Below, in pieces: positions 8,954-17,515 of a DNA stretch of 64,000 nt. The first letter of the stretch is position 1, and every line of letters starts with the position of its first letter. The translations under genes and the position numbers were made by a program. Source of the DNA: Thiohalophilus thiocyanatoxydans (GTDB lineage: Bacteria > Pseudomonadota > Gammaproteobacteria > UBA6429 > Thiohalophilaceae); assembly GCF_004366735.1 (NCBI RefSeq), contig NZ_SOQX01000002.1, positions 372,001 through 436,000 on the forward strand, read 5' to 3'. The notes beneath the pieces were generated by a model. It was not told where the DNA came from. It was given only the letters and a program-made list of their open reading frames with translations, and did no database searches.

Positions 8954-8974
8954 GAGGGGAGTAAAGCTCCCCTC
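8954..8974 (-). promoter_or_regulatory. intercistronic hairpin after dsrC
   Basis: A perfect 8-bp stem (8954-8961 GAGGGGAG paired with 8967-8974, 5-nt loop) lies 22 nt past the dsrC stop. There is no U-run after it, so partial termination or 3'-end stabilisation of the upstream dsrA-C transcript is more likely than full termination. DsrC is usually made in large excess over the membrane subunits, which such an element would favour. Confidence 0.45.
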
Positions 8975-8995: not shown

Positions 8996-9331
8996 TTATA
9001 CGCAACCTGTCGGCTTGGGCAGACCGGCATATTTACATGCCTGCTTGCCGGGGCCATAGGGGAACAGTTCGTACAGGTACTTGCTGTTACCTTTTTCCTT
9101 GCCCAGCTTCTTGCCGATCGCTTTGGTCAGTACACGAACTGCCGGCGCGATCTGATACTCTTCATAGTATTCGCGCAGGAAATTGATAACTTCCCAATGG
9201 TTTTCGGTCAGATCCTGACCTTCGTCTTTTGCCATATACTCGGCAACTTCCGGAGTCCAGTCGGCCAGATTGGAAAGATAACCTTCTTCGTCGACTTCCA
9301 GCTCTTTGCCACCTACGTTGATAGTACCCAT
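8996..9331 (-). CDS. dsrC: DsrC, sulfur-carrier substrate of DsrAB
   Basis: The 111-aa protein carries both redox cysteines of true DsrC on its flexible C-terminal arm: Cys99 (GKQACKYAG) and the penultimate Cys110 (KPTGCV). TusE proteins keep only the penultimate one. DsrC takes persulfide sulfur from DsrE and presents it to DsrAB; the released form then interacts with DsrK. It sits 39 nt after dsrH. A second family member without cysteines is encoded at 15575-15916. Confidence 0.98.
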   Translation of the reverse strand: MGTINVGGKELEVDEEGYLSNLADWTPEVAEYMAKDEGQDLTENHWEVINFLREYYEEYQIAPAVRVLTKAIGKKLGKEKGNSKYLYELFPYGPGKQACKYAGLPKPTGCV

Positions 9332-10531: not shown

Positions 10532-11611
10532 TTAGAAGCGGATGTGGGTTGAAGCGTTCAGACTGTTACGGGCACCACGCCAGTTATCGATGTGATACTT
10601 GGTAAAGGGCAGTCCGGTTACTTCGAAGAAACGCGGCCAGCCGATACGCTCGATCCAGTCGTTGATACGCTCCCAGTCTTTCGCACCTTCTTTGTATTCC
10701 TTGAGGATGCGCTTGACGAGTGCAGTCGCTTCAGGCCAACGCGGCGGGTTGTTCGGAATACCGGAGGCAACCAGCTTCTGGAACGTCGGCTTGCTACGGG
10801 CGTTGGAGTGGTTACCACCAACCCAGATAGCCAGCTTGGTGTGTTCCGGATCGTTGATCTGCATCGGCGGGCAGGGCGGGAAGCAGGCACCACAACAGAT
10901 GCATTTCTTCTCGTCCACTTCCAGAGATGCCTTGCCGTTAACCATGGCCGGACGAATCGCGGCAACCGGGCAACGGGCAACAACCGAGGGACGCTCACAC
11001 ACATTGGCAACCAGATCATGGTTGATGCGCGGCGGCTTGGTATGCTGAACGTTGATGGCGATATCACCCTGACCGCCACAGTTGATCTGGCAGCAAGACG
11101 TGGTGATATGCACACGGTTGGGCATGTTGCAGTTCTGGAACTCGTCGACCAGCTCATCCATCATGGCCTTGACCACACCGGAGGCGTCGGTACCCGGGAT
11201 GTCGCAGTGCAACCAGCCCTGGGTATGCGAGATCATCGCAACCGAGTTACCGGTACCACCAACGATGAAGCCGGCGTCGGTCAGGGCGGTGATCAACGGA
11301 TCAACCTTGGCCGCGTCGGAGACCATGTATTCGATGTTACTGCGGATGGTGAAGCGCACGTAACCGTCACCATACTTTTCGCCGATTTCAGTCAGCTTGC
11401 GCAGGGAATAAACATCCAGAATACGCTGGGTACCGGCCTTGACGGTCCAGATTTCATCACCGCTATGGGCGACGTGGCGCAGAACACCCGGTTTCGGGTG
11501 TTCGTGGAATTTCCACAGGCCGAAGTTCTTGCGCATTACCGGATGCATGTACTGGAAGCCGTCAGGGCAACCAGATTCAATAGGTTGACGCATGTCTTCG
11601 TATGCCATCAT
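10532..11611 (-). CDS. dsrB: DsrB, dissimilatory sulfite reductase beta subunit (oxidative type)
   Basis: The 359-aa protein has the siroheme/4Fe-4S cysteine region (TSCCQINCGGQGDIAI, residues 171-186; Cys214 in VVARCPVAAIRP) and an inserted ferredoxin domain (CICCGACFPPCPPM, 237-250). With DsrA it forms the heterotetramer that oxidises DsrC-bound sulfur to sulfite in the cytoplasm. An AGGAG-type ribosome site precedes ATGATG; the second ATG is an equally possible start. Confidence 0.98.
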   Translation of the reverse strand: MMAYEDMRQPIESGCPDGFQYMHPVMRKNFGLWKFHEHPKPGVLRHVAHSGDEIWTVKAGTQRILDVYSLRKLTEIGEKYGDGYVRFTIRSNIEYMVSDAAKVDPLITALTDAGFIVGGTGNSVAMISHTQGWLHCDIPGTDASGVVKAMMDELVDEFQNCNMPNRVHITTSCCQINCGGQGDIAINVQHTKPPRINHDLVANVCERPSVVARCPVAAIRPAMVNGKASLEVDEKKCICCGACFPPCPPMQINDPEHTKLAIWVGGNHSNARSKPTFQKLVASGIPNNPPRWPEATALVKRILKEYKEGAKDWERINDWIERIGWPRFFEVTGLPFTKYHIDNWRGARNSLNASTHIRF

Positions 11612-11657: not shown

Positions 11658-12917
11658 TTAGCCTGCTGCTTCTTCAGCCTTGCGGGCAAACCATTTCTCG
11701 GCTTCTTCGTCCCAACCGTCAGTACGAACATAGGAAGACTGACGCGGGTTGTTGACCATGTGCGGATCGACCTCGATACCGATACCTTCGAGGAAGTTGA
11801 CCAGGCCGATGCGCTCGATCATTTCACCGGTACGCTCGTGTTCCAGGGCGTTTTCGGCGAAGAAGTCGATGGTTTCCTCGGCGATTTCGACCAGACGTTC
11901 GTAGTCTTCTTCGCTTTCCAGCTTCATGAAGGGAACAATAACGGTACCCATCAGGTCACCGATCTTCAGTGTACGCTTACCACCGATCAGCAGGGTGATA
12001 CCGCGGTCGTCGCCGGGAGACAGTGCCTTGTTCATGACGTTCAGGCAGTGCATGCAGCGTACGCAGTTGTGGTTGTCCACTTCCAGCGTGTCGTCGTCTT
12101 TCAGGCTCAGTGCCTGGGTCGGGCAACGGGTGACAACGTTGTCGATAACGTATTCACGACCCTTGGCCTTGACGAAGTTCTTGACTTCTTCCTGGTCGAC
12201 TTTCATGTCGTCGCGCCAGGTACCGATTACGGCGAAGTCGGCACGTTCGATGGCGTTAACGCAGTCGTTCGGGCAGCCGGAAACCTTGAACTTGAATTTG
12301 TAGGGCAGGGCCGGACGATGCACGTCATCGGTAAAGTTGTTGACCAGCCAGCGCTGAATGCCGTGCTCGTTGGCACAGGACTGTTCGCAACGGGCGGAAC
12401 CAACGCAGGACATGGCGGTACGGACGCACGGACCGGCGCCGCCGAGGTCCCAGCCGTATTCGTTGATTTCGTCGAAGAAGTGCTGGGTACCGTTGGTGGT
12501 GGTCCCGATGAACATGATGTTACCGGTCTGACCGTGGAAGGTGACCAGGCCTGAACCGTGTTTTTCCCAGCTGTCGCCGAGCTGGTTCAGCATGTCAGTG
12601 GTGTAGTAGTTACCTGCCGGCGGCTGAACGCGCAGGGTATGGAATTCGCGGGAAGCGGGGAATGCGTCGCCAACTTCGGAGAAGCGCGGAATGATCCCGC
12701 CGCCATAACCGAATACAGAAACGGTACCGCCTTTCCAGTAACCCTTGCGGGTTTCGTAAGAGTGCTCCAGCTGCCCCAGCAGGGAACTGGCCATTTCATT
12801 AATGCGTTCGTCGGGATGGTCGTCGCGCAGACGCTTAAAGCCGGAAATAAAGCTGGGCCAGGGGCCTTTCTCCAGCTCATCGAGCATCGGAGTGTCATAC
12901 ATTTTCTTTGCAGCCAT
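11658..12917 (-). CDS. dsrA: DsrA, dissimilatory sulfite reductase alpha subunit (oxidative type)
   Basis: The 419-aa protein shows the siroheme-4Fe4S ligand pattern C-x5-C (Cys171 and Cys177, SCVGSARCEQSC) and C-x3-C (Cys215 and Cys219, SGCPNDCVNAIE), plus the ferredoxin insert (CVRCMHCLNVM, 285-295). Catalysis is the six-electron conversion between sulfide-level sulfur and sulfite, here run oxidatively. The start is supported by AAGGAG six bases upstream. It is the first gene of the 14-gene operon and is divergent from the dioxygenase gene at 13418. Confidence 0.98.
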   Translation of the reverse strand: MAAKKMYDTPMLDELEKGPWPSFISGFKRLRDDHPDERINEMASSLLGQLEHSYETRKGYWKGGTVSVFGYGGGIIPRFSEVGDAFPASREFHTLRVQPPAGNYYTTDMLNQLGDSWEKHGSGLVTFHGQTGNIMFIGTTTNGTQHFFDEINEYGWDLGGAGPCVRTAMSCVGSARCEQSCANEHGIQRWLVNNFTDDVHRPALPYKFKFKVSGCPNDCVNAIERADFAVIGTWRDDMKVDQEEVKNFVKAKGREYVIDNVVTRCPTQALSLKDDDTLEVDNHNCVRCMHCLNVMNKALSPGDDRGITLLIGGKRTLKIGDLMGTVIVPFMKLESEEDYERLVEIAEETIDFFAENALEHERTGEMIERIGLVNFLEGIGIEVDPHMVNNPRQSSYVRTDGWDEEAEKWFARKAEEAAG

Positions 12918-13417
12918 GGTGTTCTCCTTAAGGGGTTACCCAAATAAGCCGTTTTACGTTTTGCCTTACAACCCCACCAAGCCGTGGGATTAACACATCT
13001 TTTCAAAGTTACTGCGAAGTCTATGCCGCAATATTTGTGACGAGTATCGTACTGATGGGGTGAATTGGACCCCCCGGGTTATCCCTTATGGGGTATATCC
13101 ACCGATACTACATCTAGGGGCTGTCAGCCCGTCTATATACAATTGCCGTCCCGGTTCCTGTTCCAGGGACCAGTAATACAGTGTGTTGCGCTGTATTACC
13201 AGCTGGGTATTCGTCTTGCGGTCGCGGTATGCTCTAATCAACACCCTGCAATCGACCGGTTGTCAGGCGCAGCGCCGGATTACGGAATCCGCTGCGGATT
13301 CATTCCGGCCTATATAAAAGGTGGTCATTGCCATGCCGGCAATATTTTTACATACCCGAGTAAAACAGTCGGGACGCCTCGTAAAATGTGGGCGTATTCT
13401 ACTGATGAACAGCCAGA
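12918..13417. promoter_or_regulatory. divergent control region between dsrA and the TauD-like gene
   Basis: This 500-nt non-coding stretch must hold the dsr operon promoter (leftward) and the promoter of the rightward sulfur-accessory cassette. I could not fix a convincing sigma-70 pair on the dsrA side. Visible dyads are GTAATACAG (13173-13181) with its inverse at 13191-13199, and the palindrome GAATCCGCTGCGGATTC (13285-13301). A near-dyad ATCCCTTATGGGGTAT lies at 13081-13096. Any of these could bind a sulfide-responsive regulator, but none is proven. Confidence 0.5.
13173..13199. promoter_or_regulatory. 9+9 bp dyad, candidate operator
   Basis: GTAATACAG and its exact reverse complement CTGTATTAC are separated by 9 nt. 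The arms are AT-rich enough for an operator, and the site lies midway between two divergent sulfur gene sets. A transcribed hairpin is the alternative. Confidence 0.35.
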
Positions 13418-14332
13418 ATGCAAATCATTAATGCACCAATAAAAAACGCGGGTGTCGATGTTGCCGCGTTTGATCTCGACAATGCGCGCGCCTATCGGCA
13501 ATGGCGGGACCGGCGCCTGGCCGGCTATCCGGCCAGCACCGACGGGCTGCGGGTGCCGGTCGCCGATCCCGCGCAACTCACCGGGGCCGAGCTGGCGGCC
13601 CTGCGCGATCGGATCCAGCGCTGCAATATGGCGATCTACGCGATCGACCCGGCGCAGACGGGGCGTGAACCGATCCGCGCCCTGGGCCGGCAGCTGGGGC
13701 TCGAGCATCTGGATGGCAATCTGTGCGCTGACGAGGACAGCCTGACCGCATTGCAGGTGATCCCCGAGGGGCGCCAGCAGGGCTATATTCCCTACAGCAA
13801 CCTGCCGCTGAGCTGGCACACGGACGGATACTATAATAAGGGCGATCAAATGATTCGGGCCATGCTGCTGCACTGCGTGCGTCCGGCGGCCAGCGGCGGC
13901 GAGAATGCCCTGCTGGATCATGAAATCGCCTATATCCACTTGAGAGATACCGAACCCGCCTATATCTCCGCCCTGATGGCGGCGGATGCGATGACCATTC
14001 CGCCCAATGTGGAGCAGGGGGTGGAAATTCGCGGCGCCCGCAGCGGGCCGGTCTTTTCCGTCGATGGCCGCACTGGCAGTCTGCATATGCGCTATACCCA
14101 TCGCCAGCGCAGCATCGAATGGAAAGCCGATACCCTGACCCGGGAGGCCGTGGCCTGCCTGCGCGAGTTTCTGGCCAGCGAGTCGGACTATATTTTCCGG
14201 CATCGGCTGGCGCCGGGCGAAGGGATCGTCTGTAACAACGTACTGCACAGCCGCAGCGGATTCGACGACGACCCGGCGCAACCGCGGCTGCTGTACCGGG
14301 CGCGCTATTACGATCGCATCAGCGAGACATGA
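13418..14332 (+). CDS. TauD/TfdA-family Fe(II)/2-oxoglutarate dioxygenase
   Basis: The 304-aa protein has the facial-triad motif H134-T-D136 (LSWHTDGYYN), distal His277 (NNVLHSRSGF) and a C-terminal arginine (Arg290 or Arg294) for 2-oxoglutarate. The spacing fits the TauD/gamma-butyrobetaine hydroxylase superfamily, but the substrate cannot be told. It opens the plus-strand cassette divergent from dsrA, so an organosulfur or sulfur-carrier substrate is possible but not shown. The ribosome site before ATG 13418 is weak, leaving the exact start open. Confidence 0.85.
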   Translation: MQIINAPIKNAGVDVAAFDLDNARAYRQWRDRRLAGYPASTDGLRVPVADPAQLTGAELAALRDRIQRCNMAIYAIDPAQTGREPIRALGRQLGLEHLDGNLCADEDSLTALQVIPEGRQQGYIPYSNLPLSWHTDGYYNKGDQMIRAMLLHCVRPAASGGENALLDHEIAYIHLRDTEPAYISALMAADAMTIPPNVEQGVEIRGARSGPVFSVDGRTGSLHMRYTHRQRSIEWKADTLTREAVACLREFLASESDYIFRHRLAPGEGIVCNNVLHSRSGFDDDPAQPRLLYRARYYDRISET

Positions 14333-14340
14333 AAAGCGTG

Positions 14341-14522
14341 ACTCTCGCCAAGGCGCAGAGCCCGCAACGGGAACAGGGCATTGAATTACATTACTTTGCG
14401 TCTCTGCGTCTTGGCGAGAGAACAGCAAAATCAACAGTAAGCTCTGGCAGAGACGCCGAGCTCGCAACGGAAACAGGATGTCAAATTAACATGGCGTTGC
14501 GTCTCTGCGGCCTGGCAAGAGA
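14341..14522. repeat. two tandem palindromic units, about 80 bp each
   Basis: Unit 1 pairs 14342-14360 (CTCTCGCCAAGGCGCAGAG) with 14402-14420, one mismatch. Unit 2 pairs 14442-14460 with about 14500-14522. Both share an inner CGCAACGG(G)AACAGG segment and end in GAGAACA, so they are diverged copies of one element. They belong to the same CGCAGAG-type family found elsewhere in this window and separate the dioxygenase from the next gene. Confidence 0.7.
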
Positions 14523-14552
14523 ACAATCAACTTACAGCAACAGGACAGGATT

Positions 14553-14744
14553 ATGCTCTGGTTAAGTGAAGTGTTACTGCAAAACCACGATCTGGAAAGT
14601 TTTGAACAACTGGAAAAAGTGATCGTGGAAAAAGCCAAGGAAGGGGAGATGTTCTTTCGGATGGACGTGAAGCCGCCGTTTCAGGATACCCCGGCCAATT
14701 GGGAAGAGCGCCTGGAAGCGGTCTTTACCTCCCGCACAAACTGA
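14553..14744 (+). CDS. 63-aa protein of unknown function
   Basis: This small acidic protein (MLWLSEVLLQNHDLES...) has no cysteine, signal peptide or membrane segment, and is predicted to be largely helical. It ends 21 nt before the Cas6-like gene and is preceded by ACAGGA about 7 bases before ATG, so it looks translated and co-transcribed with its neighbours. I do not recognise a family. Its link with the Cas6-like and DsrC-like genes is the only clue to its role. Confidence 0.65.
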   Translation: MLWLSEVLLQNHDLESFEQLEKVIVEKAKEGEMFFRMDVKPPFQDTPANWEERLEAVFTSRTN

Positions 14745-14765: not shown

Positions 14766-15440
14766 GTGTTCTGGAATGAAGAAAACGACGAACAGCAGGA
14801 ATTTGTGATCCCCGATAATGTGGTGGATGTGGTTTTCGCCGTGAAAGATTGCCCGTGTCTGCCGGCGGAACACGCCTATCCGCTGGCCGAGGCCCTGCAG
14901 CAGACGCTGCCCTGGCTGGCGGAGGAGGAGCAGGTCGGTGTCCATCCGATCTACGGCGCCGAAAGCGGCAACGGCTGGCAACGCCCGGCGGATCCCGATG
15001 CCCCGATCTATCTTTCCCGGCGTCAGAAAATGACCCTGCGCGTCCCGCGTGAGCGGGTCGAGGACGCCAGGCAGTTGTCCGGCAGTACCCTGGAGGTCGA
15101 CGGCTACAGCCTGACCGTCGGCGAGGCCAAAACCCGTCTGCTGAGCGATCTGCCGACCCTGTTCGCACGCAACGTGGCGACCCGCCCGGGACTGAGCGAA
15201 GACGAGTTTCTCGAGCAGGTGGCCCGGGAACTGCAGGAACTGGATGTGCAGGTGAAGAAAATGATGGCCAGTATCGAGCGGGATATTCGCACGCCGGACG
15301 GCCCGCTGCACACTCGCGGACTGATGCTGGCCGATCTCACCCCGGAAGATTCGGTCCGGCTGCAGGAGACGGGGCTGGGACCCCACCGCAAGCTGGGCTG
15401 CGGCCTGTTTGTGCCGCAAAAAGGTATCAAGGCGGTTTGA
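14766..15440 (+). CDS. orphan Cas6/Cmx6-like RAMP-fold protein
   Basis: The 224-aa protein matches the pattern I know for Cas6 of the MYXAN subtype (Cmx6). It has an N-terminal strand VDVVFAVKD, then LPAEHAYPLAEAL (His36) and GVHPIYG (His60), a central LRVPRER strand, and a C-terminal glycine-rich loop G-L-G-P-H-R-K-L-G-C-G-L-F (residues 203-215), the RNA-binding loop of RAMP proteins. Cas6 proteins process CRISPR RNA, but this window has no array and no other cas gene. It is embedded between a 63-aa unknown and the RspA gene, next to dsr. A non-CRISPR RNA-binding or RNA-cleaving role is inferred. Confidence 0.75.
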   Translation: MFWNEENDEQQEFVIPDNVVDVVFAVKDCPCLPAEHAYPLAEALQQTLPWLAEEEQVGVHPIYGAESGNGWQRPADPDAPIYLSRRQKMTLRVPRERVEDARQLSGSTLEVDGYSLTVGEAKTRLLSDLPTLFARNVATRPGLSEDEFLEQVARELQELDVQVKKMMASIERDIRTPDGPLHTRGLMLADLTPEDSVRLQETGLGPHRKLGCGLFVPQKGIKAV

Positions 15441-15574: not shown

Positions 15575-15916
15575 ATGGCTTACGAACTGAACGGCAAGAC
15601 CATTGAAACCAACGAAAACGGCTATCTGCTGGATCACAACGAGTGGAACGAGGAGCTGGCTCAGGTCATCGCCAATGAGGAAGGGCTGGGTGAACTGACC
15701 GAAAAACACTGGGACATCATCAACTACCTGCGTGATGAGTACATCAACAATGCCAGTAACCAGCCCAATGAGCGGACCATTCTCAAGGCGATGGGCGAAA
15801 AATGGGGTGCCAAAATCGGTCAGAAGGATACCTTCTCCCTGTTCCCCAAAATGCCCTCCAAGCAGGGCGGTAAGGTCGCCGGACTGCCGGAAAGTCGCCG
15901 CAAGGGCGGGTATTAA
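15575..15916 (+). CDS. RspA-type DsrC/TusE paralogue lacking both redox cysteines
   Basis: The 113-aa protein aligns along its length with the DsrC encoded at 8996-9331 (ELNGK.IE.NE.GYL, LTE.HW.IINYLR, LFPKMPSKQGGKVAGLPE). However, Cys99 is replaced by Gly99, and the penultimate cysteine is lost in the tail ESRRKGGY. It has no cysteine at all, so it cannot carry sulfur. Cysteine-less DsrC relatives have been grouped as RspA (regulatory sulfur-related protein). It might compete for DsrAB, DsrEFH or DsrK, or act on gene control; this is inference. Confidence 0.85.
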   Translation: MAYELNGKTIETNENGYLLDHNEWNEELAQVIANEEGLGELTEKHWDIINYLRDEYINNASNQPNERTILKAMGEKWGAKIGQKDTFSLFPKMPSKQGGKVAGLPESRRKGGY

Positions 15917-16026: not shown

Positions 16027-16236
16027 ATGAGCTCAAAAGCAGAAAAGATCGCCAAGTTGATCGAAATGCAGAAGCAATTCATCGAATACGAACAGACCCA
16101 CGGCGTGGATCCCAAGGACTACTATGCCCCGGAATCCGGTCACACCCTGGACGGTTACCGTCAGCAGTACCGCGACCTGGCCATGGACGTCCTGGATGAA
16201 GCGCACAAAGAGGTCGGTTCCAAGGCCTTCAGCTAA
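16027..16236 (+). CDS. 69-aa protein of unknown function
   Basis: The product (MSSKAEKIAKLIEMQKQFIEYEQ...) is a charged, probably helical soluble protein without cysteine, signal or membrane segment. A GAGCGAGGTAA ribosome site precedes the ATG, and an intrinsic terminator follows 30 nt after the stop, so the gene is well bounded. I do not recognise a family. It sits directly after the rspA-like gene and may act with it. Confidence 0.7.
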   Translation: MSSKAEKIAKLIEMQKQFIEYEQTHGVDPKDYYAPESGHTLDGYRQQYRDLAMDVLDEAHKEVGSKAFS

Positions 16237-16440: not shown

Positions 16441-17115
16441 TCAGATCTCGGCCCACATGCGAAACAGGTTTGAATAGGCGATATCCACCTGTCGGGTCTC
16501 GTCGTCGTCGGGGCGCTGCTGCAGCAGGCTCTCGCGGGCCTGGTTGAGGCCGTAGAGCAGCTCCCGCTGCGCGGGGTCGCGGATCATGCTTTGCGCCCAG
16601 GTGACGGCCGCCAGCCGGGTGCCGCGGGTCACCTCGTTCACGTGGTGCACGCTGGACGAGGGGTAGACCACGGCGTGGCCCGCCGGCAGTTTGATCGTCT
16701 GCTCGCCGAAACTGGTGCGGATCACCAGCTCGCCGCCGTCATACTCGTCGGGACGGTTGAGAAATACCGTGGTCGACACATCGGAGCGATAGCGTCCCTG
16801 GGCCGGTCCCATGACGGCATCATCCACATGATCGCCATAGGCCATGCCCGACTGATAGCGTGCGTAGTAGGGGGCGGCAATTTTGGCCGGCAGGGCGGCG
16901 GACTGGTACAGCGGATGTTTGACCAGGTTGCCCATGACCAGATTGTTCAGCTGCTCCAGTTGTTGTGCATCGGCGGCCAGCTCCTCGTTCTGTTTGACCC
17001 GCCGGGCCGCCATGCCGGCGGAGAGTTTACCGTCGGCGAAGCGGGCGTTGTCCAGCACCGAGCGGATATAGTCGAGACGCTGTTGATCGAGTACCTCGGG
17101 TATTGTCACAAGCAT
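16441..17115 (-). CDS. PKHD-type Fe(II)/2OG hydroxylase (PiuC/YbiX family)
   Basis: The 224-aa protein has His96-Asp98 (YGDHVDDAVMG), a distal histidine at 157/158 (SSSVHHVNEV) and Arg167 for 2-oxoglutarate. This matches the Fe2+-dependent dioxygenases of the PiuC/YbiX family that are usually linked to iron uptake. No TonB receptor is adjacent, so its target is unknown. It converges on the plus-strand cassette and ends 22 nt from the inverted repeat. Confidence 0.9.
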   Translation of the reverse strand: MLVTIPEVLDQQRLDYIRSVLDNARFADGKLSAGMAARRVKQNEELAADAQQLEQLNNLVMGNLVKHPLYQSAALPAKIAAPYYARYQSGMAYGDHVDDAVMGPAQGRYRSDVSTTVFLNRPDEYDGGELVIRTSFGEQTIKLPAGHAVVYPSSSVHHVNEVTRGTRLAAVTWAQSMIRDPAQRELLYGLNQARESLLQQRPDDDETRQVDIAYSNLFRMWAEI

Positions 17116-17197: not shown

Positions 17198-17515
17198 ATG
17201 ATTTTGAATATAATGGCGGATGGGCAAAGTATTCCGCTGGAAATACCGGACAATATGCTCAACGAAGCCAGGCCGGTCTTTGACAAAATGGATGCGGACA
17301 TGGATAACGGCTGGCAGATGGGCCGGGACTGGCTGGATAATCCGGATCCGGAGCAGCGTTGTCAGATCGCCGCGGACAAGCTGCTGACCGCGCTGGAGAC
17401 GGACAATCGCAATATGGCACAAATGATGGCCGCCTACATTCTCAGCAAGGCGCCGCACGTTGAAACCGTGGTGATCGACACCAACGGCGAGATGACCGAA
17501 ACCCATTTCATGTAA
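17198..17515 (+). CDS. 105-aa protein of unknown function
   Basis: A soluble acidic protein (MILNIMADGQSIPLEIPDNML...) rich in Met and Asp, with one cysteine in PEQRCQIAADKLL, no signal peptide and no membrane span. AGGAGCACGTA precedes the ATG as a ribosome site. It is divergent from the PKHD hydroxylase. I do not recognise a family; the pattern looks like a real coding region because the reading frame is full length with a good ribosome site. Confidence 0.6.
   Translation: MILNIMADGQSIPLEIPDNMLNEARPVFDKMDADMDNGWQMGRDWLDNPDPEQRCQIAADKLLTALETDNRNMAQMMAAYILSKAPHVETVVIDTNGEMTETHFM

Follow-up and report, generated by a model that had tools for sequence, protein, structure and literature searches.

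Cas6 proteins ordinarily cleave CRISPR RNA, and P. furiosus Cas6, Thermus Cas6/Cse3, and E. coli CasE all mature it. The nearest CRISPR-linked relatives that we found for the protein discussed here are cyanobacterial type I-MYXAN Cas6 proteins on plasmids, mostly encoded beside cas3, cmx8/cas8, cas7, and cas5, with one exception (L100) that lacks these neighbors. The protein itself, which we call Cas6L, is encoded among the dsr genes. In Allochromatium vinosum, the dsr genes are transcribed as a single unit, within which dsrC and dsrS have additional promoters (PMC3368242); the genes of this unit react unequally on pyrite (PMC11267869), and a passage in PMC3397948 that cites Grimm 2010 places dsrEFH and dsrC mRNA above dsrA on sulfide. 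An open-access literature search returned no report tying Cas6 to dsr and none listing a Cas6 homologue as a dsr accessory gene.

The window, that is, the whole stretch of DNA analyzed here, comprises 64,000 nt of Thiohalophilus thiocyanatoxydans (NZ_SOQX01000002.1, 372,001-436,000, forward strand), and all coordinates are positions within it. With the comparisons below, the observation grows from one orphan gene in this window to a conserved component of the dsr locus.

A Cas6 homologue beside the dsr genes

The genes on both sides of cas6L are the following:

8996..9331, minus strand: dsrC
10532..11611, minus strand: dsrB
11658..12917, minus strand: dsrA, oxidative-type dissimilatory sulfite reductase alpha
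13418..14332, plus strand: TauD/TfdA-family dioxygenase, heading the cas6L-side gene row and divergent from dsrA
14553..14744, plus strand: s63, conserved 63-aa protein of no assigned family, directly upstream of cas6L
14766..15440, plus strand: cas6L, encoding the orphan Cas6-family protein Cas6L (224 aa; GTG start; His36 at the catalytic position, glycine loop at 203-215)
15575..15916, plus strand: DsrC paralogue (PF04358, RspA-type, without C-terminal Cys), downstream of cas6L
16027..16236, plus strand: s69, conserved 69-aa protein of no assigned family
16441..17115, minus strand: PKHD-type Fe(II)/2OG dioxygenase
17198..17515, plus strand: conserved 105-aa protein of no assigned family

The GTG start of cas6L is backed by a tryptophan at residue 3 that is invariant in 65 of 65 relatives. 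The initial annotation had described the product of 14766-15440 as Cas6/Cmx6-like, and profile searches against Pfam, TIGR02807, and PADLOC bear this out. Cas6L scores 211.5 bits against the Pfam family Cas6 (PF09559; cutoff 26.7, E 1.4e-62, 190 of 191 profile positions) and 131.8 bits against NCBIfam TIGR02807 cas6_cmx6 (cutoff 98.85), and it matches the PADLOC Cas6 models at 8e-63. By sequence, the closest solved structure is the Cas6 of a type I-B CAST (8fcj_B), reached at E 2.9e-13 from the single sequence and at E 1.1e-25 with a 22-sequence profile.

Fold prediction likewise leaves the assignment standing. In an AlphaFold2 model built from five sequences (pLDDT 69, pTM 0.62, the glycine loop being of low confidence), the predicted chain has the tandem ferredoxin/RRM (RAMP) fold. 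Its top Foldseek match is again Cas6 8fcj_B (E 5e-12), followed by the P. furiosus and Thermus Cas6 proteins. VIA-align superposes 188 residues on 8fcu_B at Z 16.9 and gives Z 11.3 to 5yi6 and 10.6 to 3qjj, with P. furiosus Cas6 at Z 9-11. Judged by its sequence and modeled fold, Cas6L is a genuine Cas6 homologue.

The small flanking proteins and the DsrC paralogue noticed at the outset were all confirmed beside cas6L, as s63, s69, and the PF04358 paralogue. Counted over 64 distinct cas6L loci, a divergent dsrA lies at most 5 kb from cas6L in 54, the distance down to the DsrC paralogue is at most 350 nt in 55, s63 lies no more than 1.2 kb upstream in 56, and a TauD-like dioxygenase is found within 3 kb upstream in 48. 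In the divergent families (L105-L107) the order is rearranged, with dsrA directly facing cas6L and tauD located elsewhere, and the link to dsr is kept.

Two further features of this gene row were observed. Between s63 and cas6L, 16 loci (including L044, L049, L060-L062, L067, and L069) encode a conserved protein of ~235 aa that matches no Pfam or NCBIfam family. The gap between tauD and s63, mostly under 30 nt in other loci, measures 221 nt in the window (14333-14552) and carries 'tctctgcg..tggc.agagaac' repeat units, an apparent dispersed repeat insertion.

Absence of a CRISPR context

The window contains no CRISPR array, as the initial annotation had stated, and the 2.9-Mb genome to which it belongs yielded no Cas1 and no DevR/Cas7. 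Cas3 gave no match over cutoff in this genome, and the three matches below it are weak; the same model also matches weakly in all 14 control genomes. PF09559 finds a single protein there, Cas6L. A type I-MYXAN locus elsewhere in the genome, raised earlier as a possibility that would speak against an orphan role, was not found in the PF09559, Cas1, Cas3, and Cas7/DevR searches. Throughout the neighborhoods of 65 cas6L loci, dsr genes occur in place of cas genes, and the 19 loci compared with Cas3, Cas5, Cas7, and Cmx8 references have no type I cas neighbors.

These results bear directly on the idea that Cas6L still processes transcripts of CRISPR arrays located elsewhere in the genome. The family models do label it a type I-MYXAN Cas6, and Cas1 is present in 51 of the 118 genomes that encode Cas6L; however, Cas1 and Cas6L show no significant association across 369 genomes (51/67/85/166, p 0.08), the window's own genome lacks Cas1, DevR/Cas7, and an over-cutoff Cas3, and cas6L is a single-copy gene tied to dsr without a type I cas neighbor in the compared loci. 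We regard this explanation as highly improbable. Given the same absences and the missing Cas1 association, a residual CRISPR role is not supported, and a CRISPR-serving role can be called largely refuted already.

Co-occurrence and co-inheritance with dsr

A survey of genomes for co-occurrence with dsr had been suggested from the outset, and it turned out strongly positive. In an even draw of 369 gammaproteobacterial genomes from 272 genera, with DsrA called at E below 1e-30, Cas6L (PF09559) occurs in 118 genomes and 87 genera, with one match per genome; one of the 118 holds two adjacent pieces of a broken cas6L copy. DsrA was detected in 119 genomes, so that 111 have both proteins, 7 only Cas6L, 8 only DsrA, and 243 neither. 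The co-occurrence (111 of 118 versus 8 of 251) has a Fisher p of 7e-75 on raw counts that are uncorrected for kinship.

The exceptions are mostly found at contig ends or on short contigs. All seven Cas6L-only genomes have cas6L on a short contig beside tauD, s63, the DsrC paralogue, or s69, and one of them has a dsrA fragment. In six of the eight DsrA-only genomes (G207, G123, G070, G110, G079, and G238) the contig ends in dsrA or at the flank where Cas6L would be expected. The remaining two, G211 and G355, are 86-88% complete. The dsrA contig of G211 is without Cas6L, and its genus mate G087 has Cas6L on a separate contig; in G355 the 1.7 kb upstream of dsrA is free of Cas6L, which other sampled members of the genus do have. 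Where dsrA sits in a one-contig gammaproteobacterial genome, Cas6L is always present (14 of 14, 12 from the class draw and 2 from a second draw). This second, phylum-wide draw of 299 genomes included 52 with dsrA: the four gammaproteobacterial ones all have Cas6L adjoining dsrA, and it is absent from all 48 outside Gammaproteobacteria. Cas6L is retained even in genomes of 1.0-1.1 Mb. It is a near-universal resident of the gammaproteobacterial dsr locus, a conserved component rather than a stray gene.

As a separate observation, seven genomes (G082, G147, G156, G194, G311, G334, and G350) have two strong, separate dsrA matches and a single Cas6L.

In a phylogenetic tree, 69 dsr-linked proteins form one clade on a 100/99 branch, apart from seven cyanobacterial CRISPR Cas6 proteins, the only CRISPR references in the tree. 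Cas6L distances follow those of DsrA (Mantel r 0.54) and TauD (r 0.63; p 5e-4). These distances point to inheritance of cas6L together with dsr. An origin from phages or plasmids was considered and rejected: no relative was found in phage records and none was confirmed among viral contigs, and the plasmid relatives found are cyanobacterial CRISPR Cas6 proteins only.

Oxidative dsr loci outside the class shed some light on how the arrangement came about. In loci outside Gammaproteobacteria s63 also adjoins dsr without Cas6L, and four of them (L139 and L141-L143) show dsrA opposite tauD-s63, followed in three of the four by a gene read as siroheme synthase. These four loci suggest that the tauD-s63 pair was already in place when Cas6L was inserted behind it.

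A gene inherited in this way could be a neutral passenger of the dsr locus with no function in sulfur metabolism, and indeed no cas6L phenotype is known. What makes this a very remote prospect is the persistence of an intact frame and invariant residues, at 33-57% identity, in over 100 genomes from 87 genera, those of 1.0-1.1 Mb among them. Purifying selection on cas6L is already evident, and domestication of a Cas6 outside CRISPR is strongly supported.

Conserved residues and charge of Cas6L

Residue conservation was counted over 65 dsr-linked relatives and set against 7 CRISPR-linked proteins. The initial annotation had pointed to three landmarks of MYXAN-type Cas6, and all three are real. 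Within the glycine loop (GLGPHRKLGCGLF), G203, G205, G211, and G213 are kept in 64-65 of the 65 relatives. His36, in the LPAEHAYPL motif at the start of helix 1 and thus at the catalytic position, is kept in 64 of 65 dsr-linked and in all 7 CRISPR-linked proteins; the sole dsr-linked exception (L074) has asparagine, which counts against a role at the RNA level. The third landmark, His60 of the GVHPIYG motif, is conserved in the dsr-linked clade (63 of 65) but is missing from all 7 CRISPR-linked proteins and so is no hallmark of CRISPR Cas6 in general.

R92, R135, and the glycine loop are common to dsr-linked Cas6L and CRISPR Cas6, whereas the basic residues K30, R73, R85, R86, K124, K164, K165, R184, and K219 are kept mainly in the dsr clade. 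W3, an NGWxRP insertion, S84-R85-R86, E145, K164-K165, R184, and K219 are specific to the latter, from which the window's protein itself deviates at residue 169 (Ser instead of Gly). Predicted pI values are 4.8 for Cas6L of the window, ~6 as the median of the dsr clade, and 9.3-9.6 for CRISPR-linked Cas6; the acidic pI of Cas6L likewise counts against an RNA-level role. Basic positions that are conserved in an otherwise less basic protein look to us like a probably re-specialized RNA site and not like a loss of RNA binding, although the same pattern could also reflect a protein interface.

In a rival reading, the RNA function has been lost and Cas6L would use the old RAMP fold as a protein-binding scaffold on which Dsr proteins or the DsrC paralogue are held or assembled. 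The acidic-to-neutral charge relative to the basic CRISPR homologues, the orphan-specific invariants W3, G70-W71, and E145, and the co-inheritance with dsr all agree with such a scaffold. A near-invariant His36 and glycine loop, however, would be superfluous for a pure scaffold, as would the several orphan-specific conserved residues that are basic, and we hold this reading to be rather unlikely.

Candidate RNA and DNA sites in the dsr locus

Two sites in the window deserve attention as possible elements of dsr regulation:

8954..8974, minus strand: stem-loop GAGGGGAG-CTTTA-CTCCCCTC, candidate RNA target, 21 nt past the dsrC stop
13080..13095, no strand assigned: palindrome TACCCC-ATAA-GGGATA (TACCCCATAAGGGATA; consensus TATCCC-N4-GGGATA, 16 bp), between dsrA and the cas6L-side genes

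Perfect stems were counted in the 60 nt behind each of eleven cluster genes and compared with shuffles. Stems of at least 7 bp follow dsrC in 60% of 51 loci versus 1.1% in shuffles, and they follow dsrA in 27%, the DsrC paralogue in 25%, the PKHD gene in 18%, dsrB in 8%, and the remaining genes in 0-5%; at the 3' ends of dsrE, dsrF, dsrH, tauD, s63, and cas6L the frequency is near background. The dsrC stems are oriented by strand (GGGG/CCCC), with the G-rich arm on the 5' side in 28 of 31, the reverse in 1, and ties in 2. A T run (at least 5 T in 8 nt) after the stem is mostly missing (present in 6 of 37).

The pattern GAGGGG-N3-12-CCCCTC occurs once in the genome, namely, in the dsrC stem-loop. 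Its uniqueness carries little weight because about two occurrences are expected by chance, by our estimate. The reversed pattern CTCCCC-N3-12-GGGGAG, for its part, occurs 50 times in the genome versus once for the former, and its copies are probably a dispersed repeat family. At the dsrA-dsrB junction (L035-L107), a strong stem-loop was seen in 27% of the loci, without a bias toward a G-rich 5' arm.

How closely the dsrC hairpin follows Cas6L is a separate matter. A perfect dsrC stem was found in none of five dsr loci without Cas6L, a small control set from other lineages, one of which (L141) has a strong but imperfect hairpin. Conversely, the hairpin is absent or weak despite Cas6L in the small symbiont-like genomes L075, L082, L089, and L093, and also in L073, L087, L088, and L105. 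A strict link between Cas6L and the hairpin is disfavored because small symbiont-like genomes keep Cas6L without it. To judge from its sequence, moreover, an ordinary mRNA stabilizer or attenuator would look the same.

A hairpin in the 5' leader of dsrA was also considered as a target and rejected: it is visible in several loci with no general excess (mean z -0.43 over the last 100 nt and -0.96 in a post-hoc window). Rfam gave no match in positions 1-24000 of the window.

The other site, the palindrome, probably acts as DNA. Of 54 loci, 29 have TATCCC-N4-GGGATA upstream of dsrA versus 0.2 expected; it occurs once in the window's genome, has variants in L105-L108, and was not found in five Cas6L-less dsr loci. 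An RNA hairpin was rejected here, since the imperfect arms show U-G and C-A about equally in the dsrA sense; pairing on one strand of RNA is therefore not favored, and a DNA operator of a putative dsr regulator fits better and is probable. Nearby, ~100 nt upstream of dsrA (13017-13023 in the window), TAGACT(T) is present in 25 of 54 upstream regions versus 5.4 expected and is probably a -10 element or another conserved site.

Proposed role of Cas6L

The family, fold, conservation, and synteny described above are observed, and the role that we build on them is conditional. The initial annotation's interpretation is supported in part: an orphan Cas6 homologue tied to dsr is borne out, and its action on dsr mRNA hairpins is a hypothesis. 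A type I-MYXAN/I-B-like Cas6 would have arrived in the oxidative dsr locus of sulfur-oxidizing gammaproteobacteria, been inserted behind tauD-s63, and afterward been passed on with dsr. Cas6L may still bind, and probably cut, a specific short RNA stem-loop and would thereby set the expression of the dsr polycistron at the RNA level, perhaps together with the neighboring DsrC paralogue. We give roughly even chances to this reading of Cas6L as an ancient domesticated Cas6 that takes part in dsr expression by binding or processing RNA.

The identity of the substrate is far more tentative. The dsrC stem-loop is the likeliest single target that we can name, but its choice is a guess, and a doubtful one; if Cas6L recognizes it, Cas6-type cleavage or capping at this point would detach the dsrABEFHC portion of the message from dsrMKLJOP or shield it. 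The complete scenario, in which a Cas6 was exapted in an ancestor of gammaproteobacterial sulfur oxidizers as a processor of the dsr polycistron via the GGGG/CCCC stem-loop and became fixed in essentially all dsr-bearing members of the class, strikes us as possible but improbable. Cutting of the transcript at the dsrC hairpin might play a part in the unequal dsr transcript levels, yet for the higher dsrC level dsrC's own promoter (PMC3368242) is a sufficient rival cause.

Cas6L might also act on RNA outside the dsr messages, such as tRNA or small RNA, and, as a pair with the DsrC paralogue, link sulfur status to tRNA or small-RNA processing. A gene of the DsrC/TusE family adjoins cas6L in the 55 of 64 loci mentioned above, TusBCD/TusE, which act in tRNA thiolation, are homologues of the DsrEFH/DsrC relay (PMC3397948), and Cas6L persists where the dsrC hairpin is not seen. 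The near-strict restriction to dsr genomes would nonetheless be odd for a general tRNA role, and neither an RNA partner nor, in positions 1-24000, an Rfam family was found, so we rate the odds of this alternative as low.

Should Cas6L act on RNA, as the domesticated-processor reading has it, it would offer a rare example of a Cas protein for RNA processing that has become a fixture of core energy metabolism, and the unequal transcript levels from the dsr polycistron would become directly testable. If the exaptation took place as outlined, a CRISPR RNA-maturation enzyme would have become the regulator of a metabolic operon.

Comparison with known systems

For annotation, the comparison with CRISPR Cas6 has a practical side. 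The NCBIfam equivalog TIGR02807, which is used in NCBI protein naming, scores Cas6L, which many sulfur oxidizers encode, as 'type I-MYXAN CRISPR-associated Cas6/Cmx6' despite its dsr context without CRISPR, and genome surveys should not count dsr-linked cas6L genes as CRISPR-Cas remnants.

With the type I-MYXAN/I-B Cas6 proteins (the plasmid cas6 of Gloeothece PCC 7424 and the type I-B CAST structures 8fcj/8fcu), Cas6L has the family profile, the tandem ferredoxin fold, R92, R135, and the terminal glycine loop in common. The plasmid-borne Cas6 also has histidine at the position of His36, whereas 8fcj has asparagine there. Cas6L differs from this group in its 25-30% identity, separate clade, and dsr context without an array or cas neighbors, and in its NGWxRP insertion, own conserved basic set, and acidic-to-neutral charge. 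The P. furiosus, Thermus, and E. coli proteins have the same RAMP fold (Z 7-11) but only 8-19% identity to Cas6L. On the dsr side, dsrN, dsrR, dsrS, and the RspA-type DsrC paralogues are, like cas6L, small non-core genes inherited with dsr; unlike Cas6L, none of them is a RAMP or Cas protein.
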